From Spirosoma aureum (lineage in GTDB: Bacteria > Bacteroidota > Bacteroidia > Cytophagales > Spirosomataceae), in contig NZ_CP050063.1 in the NCBI RefSeq assembly GCF_011604685.1, positions 1,386,501-1,450,500 on the forward strand: DNA of 64,000 bases. Reading direction: 5' to 3'. Of the stretch, positions 10,481 to 42,143 are shown piece after piece. Numbering within the stretch: position 1 is the first letter of the stretch; each line of letters begins with the position of its first letter. Both the position numbers and the translations under genes were made by a program. The notes under the pieces were generated by a model. That model searched no databases, was not told where the DNA came from, and saw only the letters and a program-made list of their open reading frames with translations.

Positions 10481-10618
10481 ACGCCTGACTGTAATTTTCG
10501 CATTTATGTATTCTCGCTTTGCCGGACGGCGCTGATCGCTATGTAAAGCAATGCGCTGACTAATAAGTAATTATCCCTGAAAAGGATAAGCTAAATGGCA
10601 TGAAAAATAATTTTCCTA

Positions 10619-12085: not shown

Positions 12086-12139
12086 ACGGTTTGGAACAGG
12101 CTAATCAGCTTGTGTGTCCAAATGCGACGAGTATTTATT

Positions 12140-13396: not shown

Positions 13397-13473
13397 TTTT
13401 TTGACTAATTCTGATCGGACATCCTCAGCCTTGGCTACTGCTACCCAATTTCAAAAAGCGTTACTAGCAACAC

Positions 13474-15609: not shown

Positions 15610-15707
15610 GTTCCGGCAGCAATCTGTAAGAAATCATTTTCTGAAAAACAGATAGATGTAATGTTTAATAAGCTTTGTATACTAACGATTCCTAAATCCT
15701 TAATGCC

Positions 15708-17126: not shown

Positions 17127-17229
17127 GTGTTTACGGTCAGGAAGCTAGGGTGGGCCGATATGCCGAAGCGACATGAAACGGATGTGTCAGCTCATCGTAA
17201 CTGATTGGTCGTAAATTAGTTAAATCATA

Positions 17230-19923: not shown

Positions 19924-19989
19924 GGCGTTGAAACGCCGAGCTTTCCGAACGTTTTGAGCGATAGGGAAGCCGAATTCCGATATTGACAC

Positions 19990-20829: not shown

Positions 20830-20833
20830 TTTA

Positions 20834-20911
20834 CGGTTTAGGGTAGTTGGTTTCCGGTAAGCTGGAATGGCCAGAGGCAGAAAGCCCGCTGAAACCAACT
20901 ACCATAAACCG
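20834..20911. repeat. Intergenic hairpin between ThuA and SDR genes
   Basis: Arms 20834-20853 and 20892-20911 pair over 19 of 20 positions (CGGTTTAGGGTAGTTGGTTT against its near-perfect complement) around a 38-base loop. It lies within a same-strand junction, so it may attenuate or process the transcript rather than end it; no long T-run follows. Confidence 0.65.
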
Positions 20912-20932
20912 ACAGAATAACCAACCTAAAAA

Positions 20933-21757
20933 ATGGAACAAGTGCAAGAGAATACGAACGTGCAGCAGGCAGTCAATCCAACGTTTCAAACTATTTTTTC
21001 GCTCGAAGGTAAACTCGCGCTCATTACGGGCGGGGGGAGTGGTATTGGCTTTGATATTGCCCGTTGTATGGTGCTGGCCGGAGCCAGTGTTGTCATCACA
21101 GGTCGTCGGGAGCAACCCCTGCAGGAAGCTGCCAAACAGCTTGTTGACAGCCGTACCGGTGCTCAGGCCTACTACAAAGTGAACGATGTGACAGCAAGGG
21201 AGTCGCTGGATGGCCTGGTTGAGGAAATTGAAGCCGCACACGGTCCCATTGATATTCTGGTCAATAATGCCGGTATCAACATGAAAAAACCTGCCCTTGA
21301 AGTAACCGACGAAGATTTCGACCGTATTGTTCACACAAATCTGAACTCCGTTTTCAGCCTGACCCGTGCCTGTGCGCAACGCATGATGGCGCGTAAAAGT
21401 GGTTCGATCATCATGATTTCGTCGATGGCCGCCTATTATGGTCTTGATCGGGTGGTGGCTTATGCCGCGTCCAAGTCGGCCGTTGAGGGCATGGTTAAAG
21501 TGCTGGCGTCGGAGTTTTCGGGCAATGGCGTTCGCGTCAATGCGATTGCCCCCGGATTTATTGAGACGGCGATGAGCAAAACAGCGATGGGCGGAGATCC
21601 AGATCGGTTTGCCCGCGCCATGCGCCGGACACCGATGGGAAAATTTGGCAAACCCGATGATATCGGTTGGGCCGCTGTTTACCTGGCTTCTGAAGCCGCC
21701 AAATATGTCACTGGCGTATCACTGCCCGTTGATGGGGGTAATTCAATCGGGTTTTAA
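20933..21757 (+). CDS. SDR-family oxidoreductase, candidate D-mannonate oxidoreductase
   Basis: 274 residues, no signal peptide. Classical SDR motifs are intact: TGGGSGIG (32-39), NNAG (111-114), Ser163/164 in MISSMAA, and Tyr177-x3-Lys181 in YAASK. The C-terminus PVDGGNSIGF is typical of gluconate 5-dehydrogenase or mannonate oxidoreductase-like members. B. subtilis uses an SDR (YjmF/UxuB) to reduce fructuronate to mannonate, the step before UxuA, and no long-chain UxuB is seen here. I therefore suggest fructuronate reductase; a keto-gluconate reductase is the alternative. It closes the glucuronate block. Confidence 0.85.
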   Translation: MEQVQENTNVQQAVNPTFQTIFSLEGKLALITGGGSGIGFDIARCMVLAGASVVITGRREQPLQEAAKQLVDSRTGAQAYYKVNDVTARESLDGLVEEIEAAHGPIDILVNNAGINMKKPALEVTDEDFDRIVHTNLNSVFSLTRACAQRMMARKSGSIIMISSMAAYYGLDRVVAYAASKSAVEGMVKVLASEFSGNGVRVNAIAPGFIETAMSKTAMGGDPDRFARAMRRTPMGKFGKPDDIGWAAVYLASEAAKYVTGVSLPVDGGNSIGF

Positions 21758-25857: not shown

Positions 25858-27886
25858 TCGTTAGATCAATCGTTTGAGTAAGAATTGAAAAGCCCGTTGG
25901 TTTCAGGATGGTTACAGAAAGGGTTTTGTCAAACCCACGAACGGGAACAACGAGGTCAACGCTTTGACCCGGTTGCAAGGTTGGTATAGTAAGGCTGTCA
26001 TCGTTGGCTTTTAGCTGGTAGCCCTGAAGCGTATAGGCCGGAAAATCGTTACGGGCCGTTATCCGGATGGTAAGTGTATGAACGCCTTCTGGCCCAGGAG
26101 TCCAGCTTGTTTTTTCAACGGTTACGGGTGCCATTTCGCGCTGATAGGTCGCGTACATCGGTCGTTTTGCCCGTTCTGGCCCGACCAGCCCCCAGGGCCG
26201 GTAGCCGTTGGGATTGGTGCCCTGATGCCGACTTTGATAATCATTGAATGACCACCACGACGCGCCGATTACGTAAGGCCGCTTCCTGATTTCCCGAACA
26301 ACCTGCTCCACGTCGGCAATCTGTCCGGCATCGCCCATTTCGGTGTCGGCCCGGCGACCCCATTCGCTGATCAGAATAGGCTTATCGGGATAGAGCTGAT
26401 GAATGTGATCCAGTACTTTGGCATGATTGCCGTAGGAATTTGTTGAAACAAAATCACAATACTGACTGGCTTCATCCTCCGGTTTTTTGGGCAGTATGTT
26501 CAACCGCATCGATGCAAATGTGTAGAGCCGGGTGGCGTCGAGTGTGCGGGCAAAAGCAATCATGTCTTTCGTCCAACTCTGCCCCGAAGGCGTTTCAGAC
26601 AGGTATTCATTGCCAACGCTATAAGCGATTACGCTGGGGTGATTCCAGTCGCGTTCGGCCATTTCCCGGAATTGCTGCTGGAATTTTCGGCGGATCGTAT
26701 CGTTTGCCATCTGCTTTGGGGTAAGCTGCCAATTACCCGCTTCCGAAATAATCAGCATTCCGTTTCGGTCGGCCCAGTCGTAAACGGCCTCGCTGGGGGT
26801 ATAATGCGTCAGACGGTGAAATTCCATGCCTGCTTCCTTCATCAGCCGCAGATCCTTCTCGATCAGCCAGTCGGGTTCCATCGAGCCCAGCCCCGGATAA
26901 TCGACAACCCGATTGCCACCCGCTACTTTGATGGGCTGGCCATTGAGCAAAAGCTGCGCATTACGAACTTCAACCTTCCGAATACCAAAGTGCGTCGTGG
27001 TTGTATCGGTCCCGGCAATAACTCGTAGATCGTAGAGTGTCGGTTTGTCAACGCTCCATAAAGCCACATCAGTGGCTTTTAAGGGCGCTTCGGCTTCCAG
27101 CACGGCCGTTTGATTAGGACCGACAGTACCAGTTGCACTCTTCCATTTCAGAACCAGTGTTTTATTTCCTTGCTTAACCTGATACTGAATAGCAGGCGTA
27201 ACCGCCTGACCCGATGTATTCCGAATGCGGGTTTTGAGGGTGAGCGTGGCTGTTCCTTTGACTAAATCAGGTAAGGCTTCCACCTTCATGTTCTCCACGT
27301 AGACTTCCGGTTCGACAGTCAGATAAACCGGCCGAATCAGACCACCGTAATTCACCCAGCCTGGGAACGGATCATTGGGACGGCCATTGTCTTTGGCTCC
27401 GGGTATACTGCCCGGTTTCCAGGTGTTGTTATTTACTGAGATAGCCAGACTGTTTTCTGAACCGGCTGTCAGGTAGTCGGTAACATCGAAGCTAAACGGG
27501 GTATAGCCGCCTTCATGTGAACCGACTTTACGGTTATTGAGCCATACCGTCGTTGCATAATAAACCCCGTCGAAATGCAATAAAACCCGTTTTTTGCCCG
27601 ATGGTTGCCAGGTAAATGTGCGTCGATACCAGGTCGTGCCGGTATAAAATTGATACCGTGGATCGACCGAAAAACAATGCGGCACACTGACTTTATCCCA
27701 GCCATTGGCCGGTATCTTATTGGAGAACCACTGTTCTGACTCGCCGGCCTCGGCCGGATCGAGCGCAAACCGCCATTCGCCATGTAGCGGAATTGCTTTC
27801 GGGTCACGGATTGCATATTGGCCCTGCGCCGAACCCGCCAGCAAAAAAACAGCCATCACTATCAACCTATGGAATTTACTGATCAT
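25832..27886 (-). CDS. Secreted GH2 glycoside hydrolase (beta-galactosidase/glucuronidase-like)
   Basis: 684 residues from the ATG at 27886, which gives a signal peptide (MISKFHRLIVMAVFLLAGSAQGQ); an upstream in-frame start would overlap the symporter. GH2 domains in order: sugar-binding jelly roll (HGEWRFALDP, VWLNNRKVGSHEGGYTPF), Ig-like domain, and the TIM barrel with FHRLTHYTPSEAVYDWAD, acid/base Glu in YSVGNEYLSE and nucleophile Glu in ILISEWGRR. Only one base separates it from the symporter stop, so translation is probably coupled. It likely trims a beta-linked hexose or hexuronic acid from the oligosaccharide imported by the SusCD pair. Confidence 0.9.
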   Translation of the reverse strand: MISKFHRLIVMAVFLLAGSAQGQYAIRDPKAIPLHGEWRFALDPAEAGESEQWFSNKIPANGWDKVSVPHCFSVDPRYQFYTGTTWYRRTFTWQPSGKKRVLLHFDGVYYATTVWLNNRKVGSHEGGYTPFSFDVTDYLTAGSENSLAISVNNNTWKPGSIPGAKDNGRPNDPFPGWVNYGGLIRPVYLTVEPEVYVENMKVEALPDLVKGTATLTLKTRIRNTSGQAVTPAIQYQVKQGNKTLVLKWKSATGTVGPNQTAVLEAEAPLKATDVALWSVDKPTLYDLRVIAGTDTTTTHFGIRKVEVRNAQLLLNGQPIKVAGGNRVVDYPGLGSMEPDWLIEKDLRLMKEAGMEFHRLTHYTPSEAVYDWADRNGMLIISEAGNWQLTPKQMANDTIRRKFQQQFREMAERDWNHPSVIAYSVGNEYLSETPSGQSWTKDMIAFARTLDATRLYTFASMRLNILPKKPEDEASQYCDFVSTNSYGNHAKVLDHIHQLYPDKPILISEWGRRADTEMGDAGQIADVEQVVREIRKRPYVIGASWWSFNDYQSRHQGTNPNGYRPWGLVGPERAKRPMYATYQREMAPVTVEKTSWTPGPEGVHTLTIRITARNDFPAYTLQGYQLKANDDSLTIPTLQPGQSVDLVVPVRGFDKTLSVTILKPTGFSILTQTIDLTNDTRTSNR

Positions 27887-27887
27887 T

Positions 27888-29633
27888 CTATATTTGTTCG
27901 TTAACTGGCCTGTCGATCGGCGCATTTGAGGAAATAGTTTTAACAACAGTACCGGCAGCCCGCCAGGGAATCAGAGCGGCCAGTAAAATGACTACGGCAA
28001 TGCCTGCTGTAATACCCGCGCCGGATGCGGTCAGAAAGCTTAGCCCGAACAGCATCAGGGCCGTGAACACCAGTGAACCCGCAATGACCTGTAAGCCAAA
28101 GCGATTTTGTTTTTTTACCTCGATGGCCTCTGCTGCTAACTCCGTTTGTGCTTCCTTACTTTGTGCGTCATCCCGTTTTTGTTGTCGGGCCACCAGGTAG
28201 CTATAATACTCATTGGCCGTTTTGTCCTGCGAACGTGCCCAGAGTTCGTAACCAAGCAAGAGCAACAGAGGTATCCCCATGCCAATGGCTGTTTCCCACG
28301 ATCTTGAGAGTTTGAAATCCAGCAATAAAGGCGATAGTACTTTAAAGAATAAGTTAACCGCCAGGCCGATACTGGTAATCCAGAGCGTTGCACGGCTAGT
28401 CAGGCGTTTGGAGAACAAAGCCCAGAGGGGAGGAGCCAGCAGCGGTCCTCCCGAAATGGCCGAAATACTGAGTACCACTTCAACAATTCCGCCTGCTGCC
28501 GGAACGAGCAGCGCAATGCCGATCATGCCCAGGCCAAATACCCACGACGACCCGCGTGCTACCCGAATCAGTTGTTTGTCCGATGCCTTCGGGTTTATGA
28601 TGCCCTTATAAATGTCATTCGTAAAAACAGCGGATACCACATTCAGGGCCGTATTGGCGCTTGCCGAGGTCGAGAAATACATACCTGTCAGCATCAGACC
28701 CAGCAAACCGGGTGGTAACACAAGCTGGCAGATTTTCAGGTAGGCGTTTTCTGTGTCTAAACCAACCAGCCCTGGATTGATGGCTTTGTAGATCATAGGC
28801 GGCATCATCCAGATAATCGGGCTGATGAGGTAGAGTCCCGCGAACAGAAAGGCGACTTTTCGCGCTGATTTTGGGCTGTCCACACTCGTGTAGCGTTGTA
28901 CGAATGTCCAGTTACCGCCGATGTAAGCGATGTGATAAAGCACAAAGGCCAGCACGAATCCAATGGTGTATTCCCCATTGAGGGGAGAAAAGAAGTCGAC
29001 GGGTACGGCCTGTGTGAAGCCATCGAAACCACCGACTTTATCCAATGACAATGGCAACAGAATGAATACGGCGGCTGACAGCACCACAAATTGCAGAATG
29101 TCGGTAACCATAACCGCCCACAACCCACCCACGGCGGTGTAGGCAATCATGAACAGACCCAGACCAATGGTACAGGGTACCAGTGGCAGGTTAAGGGATG
29201 AACTGACCAGTTTAGCTACTGGATACAGTACCGATCCTTTAATGAAAATACTGACCAGCGTGAAAATGAAAATATAGACTTTCTGGACCGTGAGGCCGAG
29301 CCGTTCACGAATAAACTCGGCGGCAGTGAGGGCTCCGGCGGCTTTCCAGCGAGGGGCCAGATACAGACCCGTTACCAAAGCGCCAATGCACATTGTCCAC
29401 TGAATGGTAATTGCGACCCAGCCATACTTATAAGCAATTGATCCCCAGGCAACAAAAGTGCCTGCTGAGAAAAAGCTCATGAAAAGAGACAATCCACCAA
29501 TGAACCACGGAACGGCTTCTCCTCCCGCAAAAAACGATTTCAGGTTTCGTCCCGTCCGGGCAAACAGCATCCCGATTCCCAGCACAAAAGCCGAGAATAT
29601 GACGATGACGGCAGTATCAATGGTTGTATTCAA
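27888..29633 (-). CDS. Sodium:solute symporter (SSS family)
   Basis: 581 residues with about 13-14 hydrophobic segments. The N-terminus (IDTAVIVIFSAFVLGIGMLF), the FFAGGEAVPWFIGGLSLFMS block of TM2, and YTAVGGLWAVMVTDILQ are typical of SSS sugar or organic-solute transporters. It should import the released mono- or disaccharide with Na+. It is 19 bases downstream of the alpha/alpha-barrel-like gene and one base from the GH2 gene. A hydrophilic stretch around 480-520 separates the last helices. Confidence 0.9.
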   Translation of the reverse strand: MNTTIDTAVIVIFSAFVLGIGMLFARTGRNLKSFFAGGEAVPWFIGGLSLFMSFFSAGTFVAWGSIAYKYGWVAITIQWTMCIGALVTGLYLAPRWKAAGALTAAEFIRERLGLTVQKVYIFIFTLVSIFIKGSVLYPVAKLVSSSLNLPLVPCTIGLGLFMIAYTAVGGLWAVMVTDILQFVVLSAAVFILLPLSLDKVGGFDGFTQAVPVDFFSPLNGEYTIGFVLAFVLYHIAYIGGNWTFVQRYTSVDSPKSARKVAFLFAGLYLISPIIWMMPPMIYKAINPGLVGLDTENAYLKICQLVLPPGLLGLMLTGMYFSTSASANTALNVVSAVFTNDIYKGIINPKASDKQLIRVARGSSWVFGLGMIGIALLVPAAGGIVEVVLSISAISGGPLLAPPLWALFSKRLTSRATLWITSIGLAVNLFFKVLSPLLLDFKLSRSWETAIGMGIPLLLLLGYELWARSQDKTANEYYSYLVARQQKRDDAQSKEAQTELAAEAIEVKKQNRFGLQVIAGSLVFTALMLFGLSFLTASGAGITAGIAVVILLAALIPWRAAGTVVKTISSNAPIDRPVNEQI

Positions 29634-29652: not shown

Positions 29653-32187
29653 TTATAAATCCTTGGATTCGACCGTAATCACCTCGATTCCGAACGCGGG
29701 CAACCGCTTCGAAATGGATTTTCCGTTTCTGATAGCCAGTTGAAAATCAGATGCCTGCGCCCGATTGTTCATTAAGACGACAAACAGCTTTTCGCCTTTT
29801 ACGGCTTTGGCCAGTAGATAGTCAATCGACGGGTTATCGATCTTGGCCAGGTTTTCATCGATGAGCAGTGTCGCTTTTTCGCCATTGATCGTCCCTGGTG
29901 CGAAACCATACGTCTGGTGAGGGCCAACTTTAGGGGCTACGAACCCACGCGGGAATGTTACCTTTCCGCCCGACCGCAACTCCGCTTCAGCCATCAGGTA
30001 ATCGGTGAGCCAGCCGATTTGCCACCAGGCGTGGTGTGGATACGGCCCGGAGCCTCTGTTCATGGCTTGCCAATAGTAGGAGGCAACACTGGTTTTAGGG
30101 TCAACGAACGCGTCGCGCCCAATGGCACCTGAACGGGCCATGTCCGCAAAAATTGGCTCTTTCGTCAGGCCATACATCCGGATGAACATCCCGGCATGAC
30201 TACACAATTGAATCGGACCTAACCGGGTGGCCGAACCGAAAATACCACCATGTTCAAAACTCAAACCCGCCTGGCTGATTTCCCAATCTTCGCGTGGGGT
30301 CCCATTCACGGTTTTTGCCTGATGACTGGCAATGGGGTGGGTATAAATCGAAGTGGTATAGATCTTGGCCGCTGTAATAGCTGCGTCTTTGTAGCGGACG
30401 TCGCTGGTCAGGTCAAACAAATCCAGAAACGCCTGCGCCGATTGACCCGTAGCAAAGTCAGGGGCATAACGGGCATCGCCACATACGCCCAGAAAACTCC
30501 CCGTTTCAACGGCGTTTTTAATCAGCCAATCGGCTCCTTTTCGGGCGGCAGCGAGGTATTTCGGCTCTTTCAGAATCCGATAGGCAACAATCAATCCGTA
30601 AAATGTCGGCCTTACATCCTGAATGTCTTTGAAGATTTCCTGCTCCGAATGACGATCGTAGGCGACCGCCCAGTGGCCATCTGATTTCTGCCAGGTTAAT
30701 AAACGGTCGGCACCGAAGCGCAGTCGTTCTTTCAATTCGGCGTTTTCTGGCTCGAATAACAGCATATTGCCGATGTCGAGCATGGTGTAGTAGGTTAAGC
30801 CAATCGGTTCGACCACTTCACCCCATTCTTCGACGAATTTTTTTGCTTTGGCCAGGTAGTATTGTCCCTCAGGAGCACCCTTGAAAAAACTATTTCCGGT
30901 TTCCTGCTGAGCCAGTTTGAAATTCTCGGCGTAGGGCAGAACGTTTTTTGTTAACGCCGTGTCTTTGGTAGCCGTTGCCAGCATCCACATGGCGCCGTAA
31001 TCGGAGTTTTTCATGGCGTCTTTGTTCGATCCTACCACGCCACCCAGATACGATTGTGCCCCAATTTTCTTCCCCTCAAAATCCTCAATGTTCCACAAGG
31101 ACGTTTTCGGATCGGTCAGGTAGTGGTGCATTTTGGCAATCCGGTCCGTTAATGATTGTTTGCTCTGCCGCAATGCCAATGCTTCGTTGAACCGATAAAC
31201 GTCGTAAACAGCATGGTTCAGCGCTTTGAACCAGTCCCCATCGGTCAGGCTGTATCGGAAACTATAACTGATGGTTTCACCCGCTTTCAAGGCCGATTTT
31301 GGTTCGCCCAATACCGGATAATACAGCGTCGGCGAAAGCTGGGCTTTCCGGTTCATATGCGATAACCCGATGTTCCAGTCTATTTGCGTGATTTTATCAT
31401 TCGCCCAGGGGTCGCGCGCCAGACCGGGCTCGGGAATAACCGAGAGGGTTATGCCGTTTTTGGTCGTTATCATCGGACTGAGTGTACTGGCGCAGCGTTC
31501 ACGGTAGAGGACGGGCAAGGATGGAATGCCGTGACCATAGGCATAGGCCAGTGCGAAATTTGTCTGGATTTTATTTCCCTGAAAATAGCCGGGAACCGTT
31601 GCCCAGGTCAGATTCTGTTCTGAGATCGTGGCGATTGTCGGGCTGGCAAGCGAAAAATACCCATCTTTCTTGGGCTTAATGGTTTGCCTGACAATAATAT
31701 CTGACGAAAATTTTGGGTCTAACGTCCATTCCGAAACAATGGTAGCGACTTCGGTTTCCTGGCTGAATACGACCTTGTTTTTTCCACTCTGTTCTGCCTT
31801 CTTCGGGAAGAAGTGGATGGCCTGTCCGGCCTTATTCAGCGAAACCGGATTGGTACTTTCTGCCCATTGCACTTGCTGGTAGTGATATTTCGGACTGGGG
31901 AAATCTTCGCCCGTAATCGTTTTGAATGTCGTATCGGGTTTCGGATTGGGCTTATCTGCTGAATAGAGCAGCGTATTTTCACCAGAAGGCGTACCAAGGG
32001 TTTGCCAGCGGTCGCCTTTCCTGACCTGAATCTGCTTCTCTTCGAAACCACGGGTGGTTTTTGTCCAGACCAGGCGAATACGATCATTAGCCAACTGAGG
32101 TGTAATCGTCTGTCCTGTTACTGGATGAAAGCCCGAAAAAGCACTTAGCGTCAGTAGATAAACAGCAATTAAGGTTTTATTCTTCAT
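29653..32187 (-). CDS. Large secreted six-hairpin (alpha/alpha-barrel)-like protein
   Basis: 844 residues with a signal peptide (KTLIAVYLLTLSAFSGF). The first ~350 residues look beta-rich, and the remainder has repeated helical pairs with aromatic and Gly-containing loops (WQKSDGHWAVAYDRHSEQE, AARKGADWLIKNAV, FLDLFDLTSDVRYKDAA, HHAWWQIGWLTDYLM) as in six-hairpin glycosidases and polysaccharide lyases. I cannot assign a family; catalytic residues are not certain. Context (SusCD, GH2, SSS) supports a glycan-active enzyme acting outside the cytoplasm. Confidence 0.65.
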   Translation of the reverse strand: MKNKTLIAVYLLTLSAFSGFHPVTGQTITPQLANDRIRLVWTKTTRGFEEKQIQVRKGDRWQTLGTPSGENTLLYSADKPNPKPDTTFKTITGEDFPSPKYHYQQVQWAESTNPVSLNKAGQAIHFFPKKAEQSGKNKVVFSQETEVATIVSEWTLDPKFSSDIIVRQTIKPKKDGYFSLASPTIATISEQNLTWATVPGYFQGNKIQTNFALAYAYGHGIPSLPVLYRERCASTLSPMITTKNGITLSVIPEPGLARDPWANDKITQIDWNIGLSHMNRKAQLSPTLYYPVLGEPKSALKAGETISYSFRYSLTDGDWFKALNHAVYDVYRFNEALALRQSKQSLTDRIAKMHHYLTDPKTSLWNIEDFEGKKIGAQSYLGGVVGSNKDAMKNSDYGAMWMLATATKDTALTKNVLPYAENFKLAQQETGNSFFKGAPEGQYYLAKAKKFVEEWGEVVEPIGLTYYTMLDIGNMLLFEPENAELKERLRFGADRLLTWQKSDGHWAVAYDRHSEQEIFKDIQDVRPTFYGLIVAYRILKEPKYLAAARKGADWLIKNAVETGSFLGVCGDARYAPDFATGQSAQAFLDLFDLTSDVRYKDAAITAAKIYTTSIYTHPIASHQAKTVNGTPREDWEISQAGLSFEHGGIFGSATRLGPIQLCSHAGMFIRMYGLTKEPIFADMARSGAIGRDAFVDPKTSVASYYWQAMNRGSGPYPHHAWWQIGWLTDYLMAEAELRSGGKVTFPRGFVAPKVGPHQTYGFAPGTINGEKATLLIDENLAKIDNPSIDYLLAKAVKGEKLFVVLMNNRAQASDFQLAIRNGKSISKRLPAFGIEVITVESKDL

Positions 32188-32239: not shown

Positions 32240-33250
32240 TCACAAGTTTTTCAATCCTTCGCTGGCAAACGCCTTCAGTTGACCATCTTCGCTGGTATAG
32301 AGGATATACACATCCAAATCGGGTCTCCTGGCTAAAAAACGCTTCGTTGCTTCCAGGCCCATCACAAAAAACGCGGTGTCGTAGCCATCGGCGGTTATGG
32401 CATCCGGCGCAAATACGGTTACGCTCAACACCGAACTTTGCTCCATCGAACCCGTTTTTGGATTGATGATGTGGCTAAACGTCTGGCCGTTCGATTGGTA
32501 GTGGTTCCGGTAGTTTCCGGCGGTTGTCATAGCCCGGTTGACCAGCTTCATGGTCGTTTGCATTTTTCCGGGCTGGAGTGGATTCTCGATGCCGATTGTC
32601 CACGTTTGACCATCACCTTTCGGCCCTTTCGTCCGGATCTCCCCGCCAATTTCTACCATATACCGGTTAATCCCTTTGCGTTCCAGAAACTCAGCAATGA
32701 CATCGACGCTATAGCCCTGAGCAATGCCATTAAAGTCCAGTCGTATGTTTTTCTTTACTTTTCGGATAGACACAGCATCAAACAAGACGTTGCGAAAACC
32801 AACTAACTGTAATAATGAATCGACATTGACCGGTCCTGTCGATCGTACTTTTTTAGGCCCAAACCCGTAGGCTTCAACCAGCGGCATCACCGTTGGGTCG
32901 AAAGCACCATTCGTTTCCCGGAACACCTCTTCCGATTTTTTGAGGACCGGGTAGAAATAGGGCAGCCGAAATCGATGCATCGTCTCCGAGCGATTAAACT
33001 GCGAAATCTCGGAATCGGCCACATAGGTGGATAGACAGTTGTCAATTGTTACCAGAACCGAATCAATTTCTTTTTTGAGATTACGCTGCTGTTCGTCCCT
33101 GTATTTGATGTGGTAGGATGTGCCCTGCGTTTCCCCTTCCAGACTGACCATTGGGTGCTCTGTTACCGCTTCTGCTCTCCCCAAAAAAGAGAGCAGAAGG
33201 AGCAGGAATACCCAGGGAATCCGGTTAAGGTTTGGCCGCAGTTGGTTCAT
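32240..33250 (-). CDS. apbE: FAD:protein FMN transferase (ApbE)
   Basis: 336 residues with a signal peptide (IPWVFLLLLLSFLGRAEA), as for periplasmic ApbE. Family motifs: QGTSYHIKY, DNCLSTYVADSEIS, TNGAFDPTVMPLV, RLDFNGIAQGYSVD, MVEIGGEIRTKG, TTAGNYRNHY, HIINPKTG, and DGYDTAFFVMG near the Mg/FAD-binding end. The enzyme moves FMN from FAD onto a Thr of target proteins. It overlaps the secreted FAD oxidoreductase by 26 bases, and a protein with a GAT-type acceptor motif is encoded two genes upstream. A dedicated flavinylation enzyme inside a polysaccharide locus is unusual. Confidence 0.92.
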   Translation of the reverse strand: MNQLRPNLNRIPWVFLLLLLSFLGRAEAVTEHPMVSLEGETQGTSYHIKYRDEQQRNLKKEIDSVLVTIDNCLSTYVADSEISQFNRSETMHRFRLPYFYPVLKKSEEVFRETNGAFDPTVMPLVEAYGFGPKKVRSTGPVNVDSLLQLVGFRNVLFDAVSIRKVKKNIRLDFNGIAQGYSVDVIAEFLERKGINRYMVEIGGEIRTKGPKGDGQTWTIGIENPLQPGKMQTTMKLVNRAMTTAGNYRNHYQSNGQTFSHIINPKTGSMEQSSVLSVTVFAPDAITADGYDTAFFVMGLEATKRFLARRPDLDVYILYTSEDGQLKAFASEGLKNL

Positions 33251-35027
33251 CTTTAATAATTGCCATTAATTCCGGCAGGTGTTCCTGATAAACTCCGCGC
33301 GGTGATGTATTGTATTTTTTGCCCAGATAAGCCGCAAAGCCAACCACTTCGCCCATCATACCGCAGGTACGCATAACCCGCGTGCTGCCAAACGCAACGT
33401 GGGTTGTGCTGATATTGCGCCCAGCCATGAATAGATTGGGAATGTTGCGGGAATACAGACACCGATACGGAATGGTATAAGGCGCCACTTTAATGTGCTT
33501 GGTTCCGGCAAAAAACTCCTGTCCCTCAAAATATTTGCTGTTTTTGGCATCCGGAAAATGAAGGTCGATGGTCCAGGTGGCTGTTACGGTTCCGTCCGGG
33601 TATTGTTTCCCTTCCTGAATGTCCATTTGGTTCAGGACATGATCGCCCATGAGCCTTCTGGATTCGCGCTTGCCGCCGATATAAGCCACCCAGGCGAGTT
33701 CGCGCTTGGCATATTTGGCCTGTTTGTTGTGTTTCAGATACGCCCAGTTTCCATAGATGGCCCGCAGATTATGGTCGCGGATTTTTTCAGCATCAGTGAT
33801 GGTGTTAAAATTACCAAAACCTGTTTCCCATTGCCAGTCGGCTTTGGCCTCGTCGATGTGATATTCATCTGAAAAGGGAATTGCCCAAGGCGTTTCGGGG
33901 AATGAAGAGGCCGTATCGCGCTCCAGCGACGCCCACAGATTTGATGTGCCGAGTGTAAAATCATCGGCTTTGTCGGCCGCCAGTGATTCGCCGGTATCGG
34001 TTTTGCTCTCCCGGCCAAACCGATAGTCGGCTCCGGCCAGATGCCCTAATGTACCGTCGCCGGTGCAGTCAGAAAACAAAGCACCCGTAAAACGCACTTC
34101 CTGATTGGTCGCAATGTCCCGCCCAATCACGGCGGCAATGGCATTCCCTTTCTTCTCGACTTTATAGACGTGGGTATTCAGGAAAAGTGAAATGTTCTTT
34201 TCGGCTTTGACGATGGAAAATTTTCGGGCATCGCCATACTCTTTGGCGTCGGCGTTTCCGTTGCCGGGGTCACCATTGTCCATTTCCCGAACAATGCGTC
34301 CCAACTTGGGGTAATGGTTTTTGTCGACATCGCCCATAAGGTGTACCCTGATTTCGGAACTGTTGTTCCCCCCCAAAACAGGACGGTCCTGAATCAACGC
34401 GACTTTCAGCCCCATTCGGGAGGCAGAAATAGCGGCACAGGTTCCGGCAACTCCGCCACCCACAACAACCAGATCGAAGTTTCCGGCTTCGGTGGGTTTA
34501 TCCGTCAAGTTCAACAGCTTATTTCGGAAAGCGGTCAGTGCTTCGGGCTTATCGGGTGGTGTGAATTTGGGTGCATTGGTAAACAGAATGGCGTCGCAGC
34601 GTCCGTTAAAACCGGTCAGATCATGTAAAGCCAGCTTCATCTGCTCACTTTTTACGTCTATTTCTCCGCCACTATACCATTTCCATTCGTCGGAACCGCT
34701 TTCGCCAAAGATGGTTTTTATCGGCTGGCCATCAACGACAACCTGAAATTTACCGGGTCCTTTCGGGAAGGGTGCCCAGTCTTTGGTACGTATCCAGAGC
34801 TGATATTTACCCTTTTGGGGGAAAGTAATGGTGGTGGTGGCATCTTTTACCGGGCGACCCATGCCGTGTGCCATCAGGTAAGAGGAACCCATCACGACAA
34901 ACGATTGCTGATCGATTACCCAACCGCCTTTATCCTGAAACGATTCTGTTTCCAGAAAGACATGATTCTGCGCCGAAAGGGGCAGAGTGAGCAACAGGCA
35001 TAACAGAAATTGAAGGATTGTTTTCAT
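33225..35027 (-). CDS. Secreted FAD-dependent oxidoreductase with N-terminal beta domain
   Basis: 600 residues. Signal peptide (MKTILQFLLCLLLTLPLSAQ), then a ~140-residue beta-rich module resembling carbohydrate-binding or golvesin-like domains (FLETESFQDKGGWVIDQQ, ITFPQKGKYQLWIRTKDW, KFQVVVDGQPIKTIFG). The FAD_oxidored domain begins with DLVVVGGGVAGTCAAISASR and LGGNNSSEIR, with CTGDGTLGHLAGADYRFGR, GKRESRRLMGDH and IPYRCLYSRNIPNLFMAGR. Its start overlaps the preceding stop as ATGA, and its end overlaps apbE by 26 bases. The module suggests a redox enzyme that docks on glycan outside the cytoplasm. Electron acceptor unknown; the neighbouring FMN-motif protein is a candidate. Confidence 0.87.
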   Translation of the reverse strand: MKTILQFLLCLLLTLPLSAQNHVFLETESFQDKGGWVIDQQSFVVMGSSYLMAHGMGRPVKDATTTITFPQKGKYQLWIRTKDWAPFPKGPGKFQVVVDGQPIKTIFGESGSDEWKWYSGGEIDVKSEQMKLALHDLTGFNGRCDAILFTNAPKFTPPDKPEALTAFRNKLLNLTDKPTEAGNFDLVVVGGGVAGTCAAISASRMGLKVALIQDRPVLGGNNSSEIRVHLMGDVDKNHYPKLGRIVREMDNGDPGNGNADAKEYGDARKFSIVKAEKNISLFLNTHVYKVEKKGNAIAAVIGRDIATNQEVRFTGALFSDCTGDGTLGHLAGADYRFGRESKTDTGESLAADKADDFTLGTSNLWASLERDTASSFPETPWAIPFSDEYHIDEAKADWQWETGFGNFNTITDAEKIRDHNLRAIYGNWAYLKHNKQAKYAKRELAWVAYIGGKRESRRLMGDHVLNQMDIQEGKQYPDGTVTATWTIDLHFPDAKNSKYFEGQEFFAGTKHIKVAPYTIPYRCLYSRNIPNLFMAGRNISTTHVAFGSTRVMRTCGMMGEVVGFAAYLGKKYNTSPRGVYQEHLPELMAIIKDEPTAAKP

Positions 35028-36142
35028 TTTTGAGTAGCTCTTGTTTTAAACGCATTCATCTTCGCCACAACATCGTGATTCCGAGGGTGGAAAGCGGTCA
35101 GTACCCGGTAGATTTCAGCGGCATAGTCCTGATTGGCATTATTCAGATGATTCGCCATCGTTTGCTGGGCTTTGTCTGATAGCCTTGGTTGGGCAGCCAG
35201 CAAATTGAGCATCATCGTAAACTGTTCGCGGTTGGCATTGGCCATCTCGCTGGCGGTTGCTTCGGCCAGCGCATTCTGAAAGGGAATTTTGGCCAGTTTT
35301 TTTAAGATCGCAATTTGTAGCGGGTAGCCCGCCGACCGGTATGTTTCCCACAGCCAGATTTGACGGGCATTTTCCATGAAAAACGGGTTGCCGAGTTTTT
35401 GCAGTGCCGAACGGGCGGTAAAAATATTTTTTCCCCGAATAATGCTCAGCATATCAGGGCTGAACGACTCCAGGACCGTCCCGTCTTGAGCGACGACTTT
35501 TTCCATGGCCCAGTATTGGTAAAAGTGATTGCTGCTGGCCAGAAAACGGTGCAGTAGTGGCTCGGTTCGATAGGTCTCCGTTATCTTCTGCATTTCATCG
35601 ACCACCTTTCCATGAACAATGTGCCAGAGCGTATAACAGGTGTAGACCGCACCGTCGATCACTTCATTTTTTACCGTTTTCAGTGTGGCCCCCGCTTTGG
35701 CGTCTACAGAATCGGCCAGATTTTCGGTTCCTTTCCCAACCAGATCCTCCATCGCTACATCTTTCAGGAGTGAGTTCGGGTTGTTCAGGATGTCCTGTAA
35801 CTTGTCATAATCTTCCTGCTTGAATTCCCGGTGATCCATCTTGGTCAATACCTGCCCCGGCGGGAAATCATACCGGGTGTAATTGCCCAATAAATCCCAG
35901 TAGAAATTGATATACACCGGTTTACATTCGCCCGTCAGACAAACGGGCGTAAATACATTACGAAAGAAGTACGACGGCTGATCTGACTCATCGAAAGCCA
36001 GTTTGAGCGTGTAAGAAGTTGTGTCGTTTTCGGTGATGGTAAACTCCCGTATTTTGGCTGGCTTTCGGGCAAAAGGTGCTGGTCGTTCCGAAAAGCCGGA
36101 AAGTAGCAGCAGGATTACTAGAAAAGCCGTTGAGCGTACCAT
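35024..36142 (-). CDS. Secreted protein with candidate FMN-attachment motif (FMN-binding-domain-like)
   Basis: 372 residues with a signal peptide (STAFLVILLLLSGFSERP). Residues 147-153 read DAKAGAT, followed by LKT, closely resembling the D-x-x-SGAT-x-T acceptor motif of NqrC/RnfG-type FMN-binding domains, in which ApbE couples FMN to the Thr (here Thr153). The region just after it (VIDGAVYTCYTLWHIVHG) also resembles FMN-binding-domain-like proteins. The C-terminal half (about 190-372) is helical and HEAT-like. It lies immediately before the secreted FAD oxidoreductase (ATGA overlap) and apbE. Flavinylation is inferred, not shown; Ala replaces the usual Ser/Thr before GAT. Confidence 0.6.
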   Translation of the reverse strand: MVRSTAFLVILLLLSGFSERPAPFARKPAKIREFTITENDTTSYTLKLAFDESDQPSYFFRNVFTPVCLTGECKPVYINFYWDLLGNYTRYDFPPGQVLTKMDHREFKQEDYDKLQDILNNPNSLLKDVAMEDLVGKGTENLADSVDAKAGATLKTVKNEVIDGAVYTCYTLWHIVHGKVVDEMQKITETYRTEPLLHRFLASSNHFYQYWAMEKVVAQDGTVLESFSPDMLSIIRGKNIFTARSALQKLGNPFFMENARQIWLWETYRSAGYPLQIAILKKLAKIPFQNALAEATASEMANANREQFTMMLNLLAAQPRLSDKAQQTMANHLNNANQDYAAEIYRVLTAFHPRNHDVVAKMNAFKTRATQK

Positions 36143-36214: not shown

Positions 36215-37690
36215 TTACTTCCAGGCTGTGTTTTGCTCCAGTTTTGGATTGGCATTCAGTTCATCCTGCGGAATCGGGAAGTATTTGTTCTTTGCCGTTA
36301 CGTTTCGAACTGGATAAACGGCGTTGACAGCTTTGGGAATCACGGTCAGGTATTTGCCGGTGCGGGTGAGGTCATACCAGCGATCGCCCTCCGCGAAAAA
36401 TTCCCAGGCACGTTCCTGAATAACCGCATCAACAAAAGCATCTTTGCTCAAACCCGTTTGCAGATCAGGCAATCCGGCCCGTTTCCGAACGGTATTGATA
36501 TAACCGTATGCCGTTGGGGTTGCACCGTTCAGGCGGGCTTCAGCTTCGGCAGCAATCAGGTACATATCTGCCAGTCGGAAAATCGGGATATTATTGATTT
36601 CATTCAGCGTCGAAACCGGGTCCTGGTATTTCTTGATCAACACACCGTCAGTTGTAATAGGCGTAATGCTCTTTTGCGGAACGGTTTTGCCGTTTTTATC
36701 CACGTAGGTTGTGTCAAGCAAAAGCCGGCGTTTATCCTGCGGGTTGAATGAATTGTAGAAAGACTGATAAGCGAACATCGAACCGAACGTCGTTTTGCCG
36801 TATTCCGGTCCTGCGCTGGCAGGCGGTCCGCACAGACCGGTCAACTGGTGGCCCCGGCCGGGTGAAATCGGGTCAACTTCAAACGCCCACATATTCTCGA
36901 TGCGAGCCGCATCTTCCTGATCATATTTATAGACGTTGCGGACATCCGGCATCAGGGCGTATTTTCCCGATGTGATCACCGCCTGTGCTTTTTCGAGCGC
37001 TTTTTGCCATTCTTCGTTATATAAAGCTGCTTTTGCGTAAAGTGCATTTACCACTTCCTTTGACGGACGGCCTTTGTCAACCGCCGGATACGAGGGCAAA
37101 CCAGCTGCGAAGGCCATGTCTAAATCGGCATAAATCTGTTTATAAACATCGGCTTTGGGGCTTTTTCCAACAATGGCATCTGCCTGCGAATAGCTGGGCG
37201 TGGTCTTGATAACTACATCCCCGAAGTTTTTGGTTAACATCCAGAGGTAGAACGCCCGCAGGTAATAGGCCTCACCGATGATTTGCTTTTTGCGGGTTTC
37301 GTCCATTACGGCCGCCGGAACCTTGGCAATGATCCAGTTCGCTTTTTCAATGCCGTCATAGCCCGACGTCCAGATTTGCTGGGGCGCTTCATTGAGCCGG
37401 GAATTACTTTTCTGTGTCGTATAGTTGACATCATAAGTGAAAAGTGTCAGCGTATTACGGCCTACAACCCCCCGTGGGTAGGTCTGGTCATCGCTAAAAT
37501 CGGCGATCAATGTTCCGGCTGGACCACTGTACATATCCGCAAACGGATCATAAGCCGCTATGAGCCCTTTCTCCGCATCGGCTGCGGTTTTGTAAAACGC
37601 TTCGGTATAGATGGACGAATAAATGGTTTCGTCCAGTTGGCAGGATGCCAGGCTGAAGGCAACTACTATAGGAATAAGTATCTTTTTCAT
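36215..37690 (-). CDS. susD: SusD/RagB family glycan-binding outer-membrane lipoprotein
   Basis: 491 residues from the ATG at 37690, chosen because it gives a lipoprotein signal (MKKILIPIVVAFSLASCQLDE) while the longer frame runs through a hairpin. SusD features: YYLRAFYLWMLTKNFGDVV, FRLADMYLIAAEAEARLNG, INTVRKRAGLPDLQT, ERAWEFFAEGDRWYDLTRTGK and the C-terminal YPIPQDELNANPKLEQN-type ending. It caps the SusC channel encoded directly upstream and binds the glycan on the cell surface. Specific ligand cannot be read from sequence. Confidence 0.93.
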   Translation of the reverse strand: MKKILIPIVVAFSLASCQLDETIYSSIYTEAFYKTAADAEKGLIAAYDPFADMYSGPAGTLIADFSDDQTYPRGVVGRNTLTLFTYDVNYTTQKSNSRLNEAPQQIWTSGYDGIEKANWIIAKVPAAVMDETRKKQIIGEAYYLRAFYLWMLTKNFGDVVIKTTPSYSQADAIVGKSPKADVYKQIYADLDMAFAAGLPSYPAVDKGRPSKEVVNALYAKAALYNEEWQKALEKAQAVITSGKYALMPDVRNVYKYDQEDAARIENMWAFEVDPISPGRGHQLTGLCGPPASAGPEYGKTTFGSMFAYQSFYNSFNPQDKRRLLLDTTYVDKNGKTVPQKSITPITTDGVLIKKYQDPVSTLNEINNIPIFRLADMYLIAAEAEARLNGATPTAYGYINTVRKRAGLPDLQTGLSKDAFVDAVIQERAWEFFAEGDRWYDLTRTGKYLTVIPKAVNAVYPVRNVTAKNKYFPIPQDELNANPKLEQNTAWK

Positions 37691-37699
37691 TTGCTTAAA

Positions 37700-37797
37700 G
37701 AGCGAAAGAGTGAATGAGCGAAAGGTGAAGGATTGTAATAGTTGTGAATTGTATGAATGCGATCTATTTGCACGTTCACTCATTCACTCTTTCGCTC
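37700..37797. repeat. susC-susD intergenic hairpin, shares 21-nt arm with 18643
   Basis: GAGCGAAAGAGTGAATGAG (37700-37718) pairs perfectly with 37779-37797, a 19-bp stem with a 60-base loop that fills the susC-susD gap. The left arm is identical over 21 bases to the hairpin at 18643. It probably modulates susD expression or mRNA decay, or is the footprint of a dispersed palindromic repeat. Confidence 0.7.
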
Positions 37798-37802: not shown

Positions 37803-40800
37803 TTAAAACGTTACCTGAAGACCGCCCAGAAATGATTTGGCTTGTGGATACACCAGATTGTCGATACCAATGGCGGTATTTGAACCCGCGTACGTGTTCA
37901 CTTCCGGATCAAAACCACTGTATTTAGTGATCGTGAAGAGGTTGTTGGTACTCACATACACCCGAATTTGCTGGAGTCCTTTGATGCGTGGCAGCGTATA
38001 ACCCAACGTCAGATTCTTGCAACGCAGGTACGAGCCATCTTCAACTACCTGGCTGGTTACGGGCAGGCGACCTGCCTGAAAACCGCTCACATACTGATTG
38101 CTTGGGTTGGTAGCCGACCAGCGATTGGCAAGCCCTGCCAACTGATTCCGTTGTCCCAGCGGCATTTCGAACGAAAGACGGCTCGCGTTGTAAATATCAT
38201 TTCCCTGTGAACCCGACAGAAACATATTCAGATCGAAGCCTTTGAACGATAGATTGGTGGAAAAACCGTAAATGAATTTCGGGTTCGGATTTCCGGTAAT
38301 CACCTGGTCTGCAGCCGAAATAGCGCCGTCGCCGTTGATGTCTTTCACTTTCAGACCGCCCAAACGACCGTCATAACCAGGAAGAATTGCCTCGCCAGTT
38401 TGATTGATTCCGTCGAAAACATAGGTTTTGAAAACGCCCAGTGGCTGGCCAACTTTCAATACCGAATAGGCCGTGATGAACCGCTCCTGCGTGGTGCCAC
38501 CGTCCAGATCCAGCACTTTATTGCGGTTCATAGTCATATTGCCAGAAACACTCCATTTTAGCGGGCCATCCAGAATCCGGGCATTTACGGCGAATTCCAG
38601 TCCCTTGTTTTCCAGCGAAGCAAAATTGCCCGTGATCGTGCTGTAGCCAGAGCTCAACGGCAAGCCTTTCACATACAATAAATCTTTGGTGGTCTTCTGA
38701 TACGCATCGATAATGACGCTGATACGGTTATTAAGTAGGCTAATGTCAAGGCCAATGTCTGACTGGGTAGATTTTTCCCAGCGTAAATCGGGGTTGGCGA
38801 TGCCCGACGGATTAATACCAATCATATACGTGTGATTAATGTTGTAATCACTACCGGGATTGGGTGCCGATACAGTCGCCAATGATTGATACGGGTTGAG
38901 ACCACCGGCATTTCCGGTAATACCGTAGCTAGCACGCAGTTTCAAATCTGAAAGCCAGGAAAGGTTCTTGGCAAATGGCTCCTCAATGATCCGCCATGCT
39001 GCAGAAACAGCCGGAAATAAACCGTATTTGTTGTTGGCTCCGAATCTGCTGGACCCATCGACGCGGGCAGTCAAGTCCAGGAAATACTTGTCTTTGTAGC
39101 CGTAATTGATACGGGCTAGGTACGAGTCCAGACGGGTACGAGACCGACTGCTGGTGATCGTTCGGGTTAACGCCAGTTGCAGGGCTTCGTTCTGGGTGGC
39201 ATCGTTCGGGAAGCCAGTGGCGTTGATTTGATTGGAATTATTGTCCTCCGATTGGGAAGCCACTACCGCCGTCGCCTTAAACGAATGATGCTGAGCAAAC
39301 AGGGTGCTGTAGGTCAGGATGCTTTCGTGCAGCAAAGCCAGCCCGTTAGTATTCACCTTAAAGCCTGATCCCGAATTATCATTCAAATCCGCTTTGTTAA
39401 CGATCGAACGGGGCGAATACCCATCGCGCAAACTACTTTGCAGGTCCGTATTGAAGGATGCCCGGTACGTTAGACCCTTCAGAATAGTAAAATCAGCATA
39501 GAGGTTGATGAGGGTCCGTTTGATGGCGTTCCGGTTCAGCACACTGGCGAAGTTGAGCGGATTGGTAACTTCCCGATACTGACCGCCAGCCTGCTCGCCA
39601 AATGGAAAAATCGTACCATCAGCACGGTAAGGTACCAGCGTTGGGGGGGCACCAATGGCCGCACCGAGGATGGAAGCCGTTACAACGCCCGCGTCACCGA
39701 TCGTTTCAGAACCGGTTGTGATACCGGAGTTAATGGCGTAACTGCCTAAGATACTGGTTCCTACTTTTAACCGTTCGCTTATTCGGTGATCAACATTCAA
39801 CCGGTATGAATACCGTTTAAAGGCCGAGTTAATGATGATACCGTCTTGATTGAAGTAACTAGCCGAAAGAGCTAACTGGGTTTTTTCGTTTCCGCCGTTG
39901 ATCGACAACTGGTGATTTTGGATGGGTGCCTCACGGAAAATGAGATTTTGCCAGTTCGTGCCTGCCCCTAACGATGCTGGATCGGGATAGAAATTATTTT
40001 TGAAAACCTCGTTTTCCAATTGCGCAAATTGAGCCGCATTCAAAACCGGTAAGGTTTTATTTACTTTCTGCACACCATAATAGCTGTCGAGCGTTACGCG
40101 GGTAGCGCCTGTTTTACCGCGCTTGGTTGTAATGAGTACAACGCCGTTGGCTGCCCGTGACCCGTAAATGGCAGAGGCAGAGGCATCCTTCAGAATTTCG
40201 ACTGACTCAATATCGTTCGGATTGATGGTCGAAAGCGGGCTGACATCGTTAATACCGCCACTGTTCGAAATCTGGATACCATCCACGACATACAACGGTT
40301 CGGAACTCCCGTTAATCGAGTTTGTTCCCCGAATCCGTACACTGACGTTTCCGCCGGGAGCGCCCGTATTCTGATTCACCTGAACGCCTGCAACCCGCGA
40401 CTGGAGCCCCTGAGCCACGTTGGCAACTGGCGTTTGCACCAGATCAGCGGCTTTTACCGACGCAATAGCGCCTGTCGTTTCTATTTTTCGTTGTGTACCA
40501 TAACCCACGACCACAACTTCGTTCAGCGACCGGTCGTCGGTCTGAAGCGTCAGATCAATCGTCGAGCGATTTCCTACTGTAACGTCCTGCGAGACATAGC
40601 CGATAAAGGAGAATGTAAGAACTGCTGTTCCGTTTTCGGTCGATACGTTGGGTAAAGAATACCGGCCTTCTGCATTCGTGGTCGTACCGCGTTGGGTATT
40701 CTTCAGTATGACACTGACACCTGGCAACGCATTGCCGTCTGGTCCTGTTACACGCCCATTGACAGTAAGGCCCTGAGCCAGCACACCCGATGCCGCTGCA

Positions 40801-40847
40801 AGAACCGTTAGTCCCAGACAGAAGAGGAATCGTATTCGTTTTTTCAT
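37803..40847 (-). CDS. susC: SusC/RagA TonB-linked outer-membrane transporter
   Basis: 1014 residues from the ATG at 40847, which starts a signal peptide (MKKRIRFLFCLGLTVLAAAS...LAQ); 30 codons upstream are open but basic and unlikely. Order: carboxypeptidase-regulatory-like domain (VNGRVTGPDGNALPGVSVIL), TonB-box-like VVVGYGTQRKIETTGAI, plug (VAGVQVNQNTGAPGG, IRGTNSINGSSEPLYVVDGI, KDASASAIYGSRAANGVVLI) and the 22-strand barrel ending in aromatic/Phe (GGLQVTF). It imports oligosaccharides with energy from TonB. It is the first gene of the nine-gene operon and is divergent from a LacI regulator. Confidence 0.95.
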   Translation of the reverse strand: MKKRIRFLFCLGLTVLAAASGVLAQGLTVNGRVTGPDGNALPGVSVILKNTQRGTTTNAEGRYSLPNVSTENGTAVLTFSFIGYVSQDVTVGNRSTIDLTLQTDDRSLNEVVVVGYGTQRKIETTGAIASVKAADLVQTPVANVAQGLQSRVAGVQVNQNTGAPGGNVSVRIRGTNSINGSSEPLYVVDGIQISNSGGINDVSPLSTINPNDIESVEILKDASASAIYGSRAANGVVLITTKRGKTGATRVTLDSYYGVQKVNKTLPVLNAAQFAQLENEVFKNNFYPDPASLGAGTNWQNLIFREAPIQNHQLSINGGNEKTQLALSASYFNQDGIIINSAFKRYSYRLNVDHRISERLKVGTSILGSYAINSGITTGSETIGDAGVVTASILGAAIGAPPTLVPYRADGTIFPFGEQAGGQYREVTNPLNFASVLNRNAIKRTLINLYADFTILKGLTYRASFNTDLQSSLRDGYSPRSIVNKADLNDNSGSGFKVNTNGLALLHESILTYSTLFAQHHSFKATAVVASQSEDNNSNQINATGFPNDATQNEALQLALTRTITSSRSRTRLDSYLARINYGYKDKYFLDLTARVDGSSRFGANNKYGLFPAVSAAWRIIEEPFAKNLSWLSDLKLRASYGITGNAGGLNPYQSLATVSAPNPGSDYNINHTYMIGINPSGIANPDLRWEKSTQSDIGLDISLLNNRISVIIDAYQKTTKDLLYVKGLPLSSGYSTITGNFASLENKGLEFAVNARILDGPLKWSVSGNMTMNRNKVLDLDGGTTQERFITAYSVLKVGQPLGVFKTYVFDGINQTGEAILPGYDGRLGGLKVKDINGDGAISAADQVITGNPNPKFIYGFSTNLSFKGFDLNMFLSGSQGNDIYNASRLSFEMPLGQRNQLAGLANRWSATNPSNQYVSGFQAGRLPVTSQVVEDGSYLRCKNLTLGYTLPRIKGLQQIRVYVSTNNLFTITKYSGFDPEVNTYAGSNTAIGIDNLVYPQAKSFLGGLQVTF

Positions 40848-41014
40848 GAGGTTAGTTATAGGAATAATTAAATTTTTTGGTCCTGGCGTCTGGTACTTTC
40901 TTCTGTGGTGGTAGGTATTAAAAAAGCCCCAAATCACACGGAAGATGCCTATTCCAGCGCTGTTTGTTTGAATTTCTCTTCAAAACTGCCTTTTGTCAAG
41001 GAAAACTTTACTTA

Positions 41015-41123: not shown

Positions 41124-42143
41124 ATGCAACAGCACCTGCCTACTATTATCGACATTGCCCGGCAACTGGGTATATCAAAATCGACAGTATCGCGCGCCTT
41201 AACGGCACATCCCAATGTGAGTGCGAAGACGCGGCAACGGGTGCTGGAACTGGCCGAACAACTGGATTATCAACGGAATCAGTTAGCCATCTCACTGCTG
41301 ACCAATCAGACCCGGACCATAGGTATTATGGTGCCTGAATTCATCAGCTTTTTCTTTCCAAAAGTGATTATTGGTGCGCAGGAAGTGCTGGCCGAAGCTG
41401 GCTACAATGTCGTAATCTGTCACTCCAATGAATCGTACGAAACCGAGGTAGAGAACGCTAAAGCACTGCTGGCCAGTCGTGTCGATGGGTTGATCGTGTC
41501 GCACACCAAAGAAACCCGCAATTTTGATCATTTTCGCATCTTTCAGCGCAAGGGCGTTCCGGTCGTGTTTTTCAACCGGGTCTGCGAAGATATGAATGTG
41601 TCGAAGGTTACGGTCAATGATTACGACGGGGCTTTTCGGGCTATTGAGCACCTGATCCAGACCGGCCGACGGCGTATTGCCCACCTTGCCGGGCCAGACA
41701 GCCTGCCCAATAGCCGTAATCGGCTCAATGGCTACCGCGATGCGCTGCGGCATTATGGCATTGCCGAAGAACCGGAACTGGTCATTTCGTATGACCTGAC
41801 GCTGGAGAAGGCTAATATCTATGTGAATCACCTGCTAAATCTGCCTCAGCCACCCGACGCGTTGTTTACGATCAATGACCCCACTGCCATCGAAGCACTC
41901 AAGGTGATCAAAAGTCGTGGACTGCGCATTCCCGACGATATTGCCATTGTTGGATTCAGCAACGATCCGATTTCTGCGTTGGTCGAGCCAGGCATAACGA
42001 CTGTTTCTCAGCCTGTTAGTGAAATTGGCCAGCAGGCCGCTGCCTTATTGATGGAGCAAATAACGGATAAGGACAATACTGTACCTCCAAGAACAATTGT
42101 GCTGGAAACGCAGCTCATTATAAGAGGGTCGACGGTACATTAA
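41124..42143 (+). CDS. LacI-family transcriptional regulator of the FAD/SusCD operon
   Basis: 339 residues. The helix-turn-helix (TIIDIARQLGISKSTVSRAL), hinge (RVLELAEQLDYQRNQLA) and effector domain (TRTIGIMVPEFISFFFPKVI, ASRVDGLIVSHTKE, GFSNDPISALVEPGITTV) are all normal. It is divergent from susC with a 48-bp palindrome in the gap, so it very probably controls the nine-gene operon. It shares family and layout with the regulator at 4665 but the two candidate operators differ (TGGGAA half-site versus GCAA), consistent with separate regulons. Effector unknown. Confidence 0.92.
   Translation: MQQHLPTIIDIARQLGISKSTVSRALTAHPNVSAKTRQRVLELAEQLDYQRNQLAISLLTNQTRTIGIMVPEFISFFFPKVIIGAQEVLAEAGYNVVICHSNESYETEVENAKALLASRVDGLIVSHTKETRNFDHFRIFQRKGVPVVFFNRVCEDMNVSKVTVNDYDGAFRAIEHLIQTGRRRIAHLAGPDSLPNSRNRLNGYRDALRHYGIAEEPELVISYDLTLEKANIYVNHLLNLPQPPDALFTINDPTAIEALKVIKSRGLRIPDDIAIVGFSNDPISALVEPGITTVSQPVSEIGQQAAALLMEQITDKDNTVPPRTIVLETQLIIRGSTVH

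Follow-up and report, generated by a model that had tools for sequence, protein, structure and literature searches.

A candidate flavinylated protein that accompanies PF12831 FAD oxidoreductases, mostly in SusCD loci, in Spirosoma aureum and its relatives

In FMN_bind-domain reductases, among them the fumarate reductase of Klebsiella and urocanate reductase, a flavin adenine dinucleotide (FAD) enzyme works with a domain that carries covalent flavin mononucleotide (FMN). PMC12052999 describes the FMN-containing fumarate reductase of Klebsiella as a reductase with an FMN_bind domain and gives the motif recognized by ApbE as D-x-x-[S/T]-G-A-[S/T]. FMN_bind, NqrB/RnfD, DUF2271, DUF3570, Flavodoxin_4 and FMN_red are named as ApbE substrates in PMC8238504 and PMC11334425; PMC8238504 also reports apbE without a known substrate in 4% of genomes (670) and expects further unidentified substrates. 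Here we describe a 64,000-nucleotide stretch (the window; contig NZ_CP050063.1, positions 1,386,501 to 1,450,500) of the Spirosoma aureum genome, which is a single 8.9 Mb contig. Three adjacent genes in the window encode an ApbE, an FAD oxidoreductase of Pfam family PF12831 (FADox1) and a protein for which we coin the name FlavP. Unlike the FMN_bind-domain reductases, FlavP and FADox1 are two separate proteins, the enzyme belongs to PF12831, and the setting is a sugar locus with a probably oxidative reaction. The core features, found as open reading frames (ORFs) or within them, are:

35024..36142, minus strand: FlavP, 372 aa; ORF with a hydrophobic N-terminus
35684..35704, minus strand: predicted flavinylation motif of FlavP, DAKAGAT, residues 147-153, with FMN predicted on Thr153
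35924..35941, minus strand: Cys68-x4-Cys73 in the FlavP N-domain, invariant in 127/127 unique sequences
33225..35027, minus strand: FADox1, PF12831 FAD oxidoreductase, 600 aa; hydrophobic N-terminus, profile match
32240..33250, minus strand: ApbE, FAD:protein FMN transferase, 336 aa; profile match, within the module ApbE clade described below

The original prediction placed three packed, overlapping genes here, and the ORFs agree exactly, with overlaps of 4 bases (flavP and the FADox1 gene) and 26 bases (the FADox1 gene and apbE). The identities assigned to two of them were borne out by full-length profile matches: FADox1 matched PF12831 with 251.8 bits (cut-off 27; E 2.1e-74) over residues 185-584 and profile positions 1-412 of 416, and ApbE matched PF02424 with 260.9 bits (cut-off 25.6; E 1.9e-77) over profile positions 2-265 of 266. 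About 160 residues before the FAD domain of FADox1 carry no family assignment, and its Protein Data Bank (PDB) sequence matches cover mainly the FAD-binding segment. The module had also been placed in a SusCD locus, and SusC and SusD genes do lie directly upstream of flavP, with short gaps through a run of nine genes; by its gene content, a susC-susD pair with glycan genes in one run, this is a polysaccharide utilization locus.

FlavP, which is often duplicated, almost always has a PF12831 enzyme as its partner, and most of the loci are of the SusCD type. Our survey took in 70 loci from named genomes and a further S. aureum locus (L086), sorted into 58 close and 17 distant rows, of which 57 and 16 are intact; the broken L061 accounts for the remaining close row and a piece of it for the remaining distant one. 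A PF12831-type FAD gene lay within 400 bp of FlavP at 55 of the 57 intact close loci, and at 642 bp (L038) and 986 bp (L024) in the others; SusC or SusD was present within 8 kb in 58/58 close rows, and a LacI gene in 44 of 58 loci (L006-L063). At the distant loci the FAD gene was within 400 bp in 11 of 16 intact cases; no FAD gene was found at L066 or at L068 (on a contig of 3.9 kb), it stood 742 bp away at L069 and 3.2 kb away at L071, and L070 lies at a contig end. Sampling was less selective within the family, where 51 of 150 genomes have FlavP: 55 regions from FlavP-bearing genomes held 56 distant copies, with the FAD gene within 400 bp in 54 (not L165 or L191) and SusC or SusD within 6.5 kb in 47, and since the survey sets overlap (L150 = L049, L159 = L059, L197 = L074) these counts are not independent. 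All 15 FAD-enzyme genes tested matched PF12831. The S. aureum genome has 30 PF12831 matches, 11 of them full-length genes, and because both of its FlavP copies directly adjoin one of these 11, the adjacency is more than chance. Across a sample of the phylum, only 8 of 395 genomes have the N-domain, and all of these belong to the window's class; named loci also came from Chitinophaga, Saprospiraceae, Paludibacter, Pontiellaceae and Kiritimatiellae. In Chitinophaga sedimenti (L061, 9983-12869) FlavP and FADox1 are both in pieces. The second S. aureum copy (L086, G000:C1:5696000-5714000; 10484-18001) forms a SusC-SusD-PF12831-FlavP locus with no apbE nearby, a FlavP motif reading DGVSSAT and an FAD enzyme with a twin-arginine-like start.

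A homologue search with FlavP returned 308 proteins; among the matches listed (120), those with names were "hypothetical", with "HEAT repeat" in three, and the nearest named relatives were from Spirosoma. Alignments of 28 and 64 relatives were drawn from the best 120 of the 308. Since the whole-length fold search was dominated by ARM/HEAT repeats, we modelled the N-domain alone. Together these predictions describe FlavP as an NqrC/RnfG-like N-domain (approximately residues 26-186) followed by a C-terminal ARM/HEAT repeat (approximately 193-372), so the FMN-binding-type fold anticipated by the original prediction found support from modelling; the match to FMN-binding profiles that it looked for in the 35024-36142 product did not appear, with no PF04205 (FMN_bind) hit over the cut-off. 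At E 0.1 neither Pfam nor NCBIfam placed FlavP in a family, Pfam's DUF2271 (PF10029) and DUF3570 (PF12094) included, and at E 1 it matched no PDB sequence. FMN_bind was absent from the 20 families matched by 64 close relatives at E 0.1, and at E 10 it was not seen among the best 25 of 35 families matched by FlavP relatives. Three of ten distant members scored 15.8-16.6 bits to FMN_bind at the motif, against a Pfam cut-off of 22; because the cut-off is not reached, we term the N-domain FMN_bind-like and do not assign it to PF04205. The FMN_bind comparison alignment was built from matched ORFs (21 of 40 loci kept), and the N-domain alignment covered 61 of the 74 N-domains, leaving out 13 that were similar. 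Short proteins consisting of the N-domain by itself numbered 36; many lie on short contigs and may be fragments, and no conclusion draws on them. The Cys68 and Cys73 pair may form a disulfide.

DAKAGAT stands at residues 147-153 of the ORF translation, as originally claimed, and the expected conservation of its Thr held. Across 127 unique sequences of 132 FlavP proteins (window included, broken L061 excluded), Asp147 was found in 127, Gly151 in 103, Ala152 in 122 and Thr153 in 126, with one Ser at the last position (L187). Position 150 was Ser in 53, Thr in 39 and Ala in 35. The strict motif occurs in 68 of 127, and another 35 deviate solely by Ala at position 4; the window FlavP falls into the latter group, and the effect of Ala there does not figure in the relevant passage of PMC12052999. 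That passage reports that, in the protein tested, loss of the final Thr abolished flavinylation, Asp to Ala had a minor effect, and Gly to Ala and Ala to Val each approximately halved it. At motif position 6, Pro replaces Ala in five FlavP paralogues (L187, L188, L189, L192 and L195).

The presence of apbE at most homologous loci, which the original prediction called for, held at close loci (43 of 57 within 3 kb) and failed at distant ones (9 of 56 copies within 400 bp). In a midpoint-rooted FastTree phylogeny, the 51 unique module ApbEs formed one clade (support 0.972) with 0 of 31 comparison ApbEs inside, the latter taken from S. aureum and from those genomes, described below, that were searched because their listed locus lacks apbE. 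By this tree, one ApbE lineage travels with part of the FlavP family. Seven Larkinella genomes have no apbE at the first FlavP and one directly after the second, the two copies being paired by contig coordinates. Of 28 genomes whose listed locus lacks apbE, 26 were searched (that of L068 was left out and S. aureum was done separately), and 25 of these carry apbE elsewhere, the exception being a metagenome-assembled genome (L073). We rejected genome-level co-occurrence of FlavP and apbE as evidence; with apbE in 148 of 150 family genomes it is uninformative. The S. aureum genome contains no FMN_bind gene, and two of its other ApbEs have a gene of a described substrate type close by, DUF3570 at a distance of 0.7 kb in one case (7.19 Mb) and DUF2271 at 2.4 kb in the other (3.98 Mb). 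A fourth ApbE gene (C1:8817312-8818132) runs across two reading frames, which probably reflects a broken gene or a sequencing error. This accounting would leave the window ApbE with FlavP.

The remaining genes of the run, and the divergent regulator, are:

37803..40937, minus strand: SusC-like TonB-dependent receptor, profile match
36215..37783, minus strand: SusD-like protein, profile match
29653..32187, minus strand: 844-aa protein with a hydrophobic N-terminus; sub-threshold matches only
27888..29633, minus strand: sodium:solute symporter, profile match
25832..27946, minus strand: GH2 glycoside hydrolase, profile match
23569..25857, minus strand: second PF12831 FAD oxidoreductase, 762 aa; FAD domain from residue 20
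41124..42143, plus strand: LacI-family regulator, divergent from the operon, profile match

The order is SusC, SusD, FlavP, FADox1, ApbE, 844-aa protein, symporter, GH2 and second PF12831 enzyme, with intergenic gaps of -59 to 72 bases. A Kyte-Doolittle scan, a simple hydrophobicity measure and not a signal-peptide predictor, gave N-terminal values of 2.92, 2.69 and 2.85 for the three core proteins. By the same crude scan a hydrophobic N-terminus is present in 117 of 133 FlavP, 46 of 52 ApbE and 66 of 137 FADox1-type ORFs; 52 of the 137 have an RRx start. The second PF12831 enzyme is probably cytoplasmic, because its FAD domain begins at residue 20 and its pass in the scan comes from the first Rossmann strand. 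The 844-aa protein scored 17.4 bits to GH127 (cut-off 24.9) and 15.1 to GH88 (cut-off 26.6); its PDB matches (LANCL1 and an alpha-1,6-mannanase, E 0.025-0.035) were too weak to identify it. Beyond the operon end, on the plus strand, are GH67 and GFO/IDH/MocA, ThuA and SDR genes (window 13474-15609 and 18745-21757), a neighbourhood that is possibly uronate-related.

We propose that ApbE would fix FMN on Thr153 of exported FlavP, within the NqrC/RnfG-like domain, and that exported FADox1 would oxidize a sugar or a glycan fragment that the SusCD locus handles. The covalent FMN of FlavP would reoxidize the reduced FAD of FADox1, the ARM/HEAT part would dock the enzyme or the acceptor, and electrons would then reach a c-type cytochrome and the respiratory chain. 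The gene set, motif conservation, fold resemblance, near-constant FAD-enzyme pairing and module-linked ApbE lineage support this scheme, and we infer FMN attachment, the redox partnership, the direction of oxidation, the substrate, the docking role and the cytochrome step. We consider the chain as a whole fairly probable.

As for the cytochrome step, CxxCH occurs in none of the nine operon proteins, the operon has no cytochrome gene, and of 126 loci only 7 have a CxxCH protein within 4 kb of FlavP, a count that slightly lowers our estimate. These seven cases are nonetheless informative. Five of the seven Larkinella second copies have a DUF7133/HEAT/cytochrome c protein after apbE, and the other two (L168 and L170) have hydrolase and luciferase-like genes in its place; L066 and L070 have PSCyt1 proteins after FlavP. 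The five Larkinella modules (L151, L153, L154, L158 and L173) read SusC-SusD-FAD enzyme-FlavP-ApbE-DUF7133/HEAT/cytochrome c. A gene of the same family, with DUF7133 and cytochrome c, lies at window 108-2555, approximately 20 kb from the operon end.

Electrons might instead flow in reverse, flavinylated FlavP feeding FADox1, which would reduce a substrate. Flavocytochrome c fumarate reductases do occur among the PDB matches of FADox1, over the FAD-binding segment only and beside many unrelated FAD enzymes, and respiratory oxidoreductases occur in ApbE-linked gene clusters (PMC8238504). Profile searches of the nine operon proteins, however, gave no electron donor of the inner membrane, the Sus genes stand near FlavP in every close row, and where redox genes are co-encoded, in a minority of loci, they are c-type cytochromes. 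Such cytochromes are the usual acceptors of sugar dehydrogenases. Because of the sugar-locus context and the cytochromes at a few FlavP loci, sugar oxidation is the most likely direction, and we regard reversed flow as unlikely. FlavP might also be flavinylated while FADox1 is an O2-using oxidase, in which case FlavP would serve a different partner or act in structure or sensing. Direct use of O2 does occur in some FAD sugar oxidases, GMC-family glycoside 3-oxidases produce H2O2 (PMC10646112), and the operon has no acceptor gene; FlavP nevertheless adjoins a PF12831 gene at nearly every locus, close or distant, and because of this near-constant adjacency separate roles are improbable. That FlavP is not flavinylated, its motif marking a fold element and ApbE serving something else, has very little probability despite Ala at motif position 4 in the window FlavP, the missing Pfam FMN_bind match and the mostly non-local apbE of distant copies, given the conservation of Thr153 and of the strict motif, the predicted fold, the single module ApbE clade and the accounting of S. 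aureum ApbE substrates.

The original reading of a flavinylated protein relaying electrons from an FAD enzyme outside the cytoplasm is supported; what is new is the PF12831 partnership, the NqrC-like domain joined to an ARM/HEAT repeat, and the ApbE lineage that goes with part of the family. On balance we lean toward a broader statement, that an unclassified ApbE-substrate family is the dedicated acceptor of PF12831 enzymes in SusCD loci, passing sugar electrons through a covalent flavin and cytochrome c to respiration. A predicted covalent-flavin partner gives PF12831 enzymes a testable role, as a dehydrogenase with its carrier, and extends the predicted ApbE substrates by one family; it also points to an oxidative branch of glycan breakdown in these Bacteroidota, located outside the cytoplasm and yielding energy. 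Because the pairing recurs in many related bacteria, FlavP, FADox1 and ApbE may be an overlooked kind of electron-transfer system. Our literature search found no paper linking flavinylation with polysaccharide utilization loci or ApbE with Spirosoma; papers on "FAD-dependent oxidoreductase" with SusD came without ApbE, and ApbE and FMN-binding with SusC, or PF12831, matched only work on Brucella flavoproteins. Neither that search nor the PDB matches gave a substrate or acceptor for PF12831 enzymes of SusCD loci. The FlavP family was not met in the main-text portions of PMC8238504 or PMC11334425 that we consulted, supplementary material lying outside the search.

Several described systems share features with this one. 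FlavP has in common with NqrC/RnfG FMN_bind (PF04205) proteins the predicted fold, a predicted Asp...Thr flavinylation motif, export and an ApbE in the genome; unlike them, it has no Pfam match over the cut-off, an invariant Cys68-x4-Cys73, a C-terminal ARM/HEAT repeat and, as partner, a PF12831 enzyme in a SusCD locus. DUF2271 and DUF3570 are likewise ApbE substrates outside PF04205 that were identified by gene context and motif (PMC8238504); FlavP differs in matching neither, and S. aureum has one gene of each near its own apbE elsewhere. Periplasmic sugar 3-dehydrogenases of the LacABC type (PMC9007349) share sugar oxidation outside the cytoplasm. Unlike those, the operon proteins scanned gave no DUF1080 hydrolase or GMC-type match, and the locus described here combines a PF12831 enzyme with a predicted flavin carrier.
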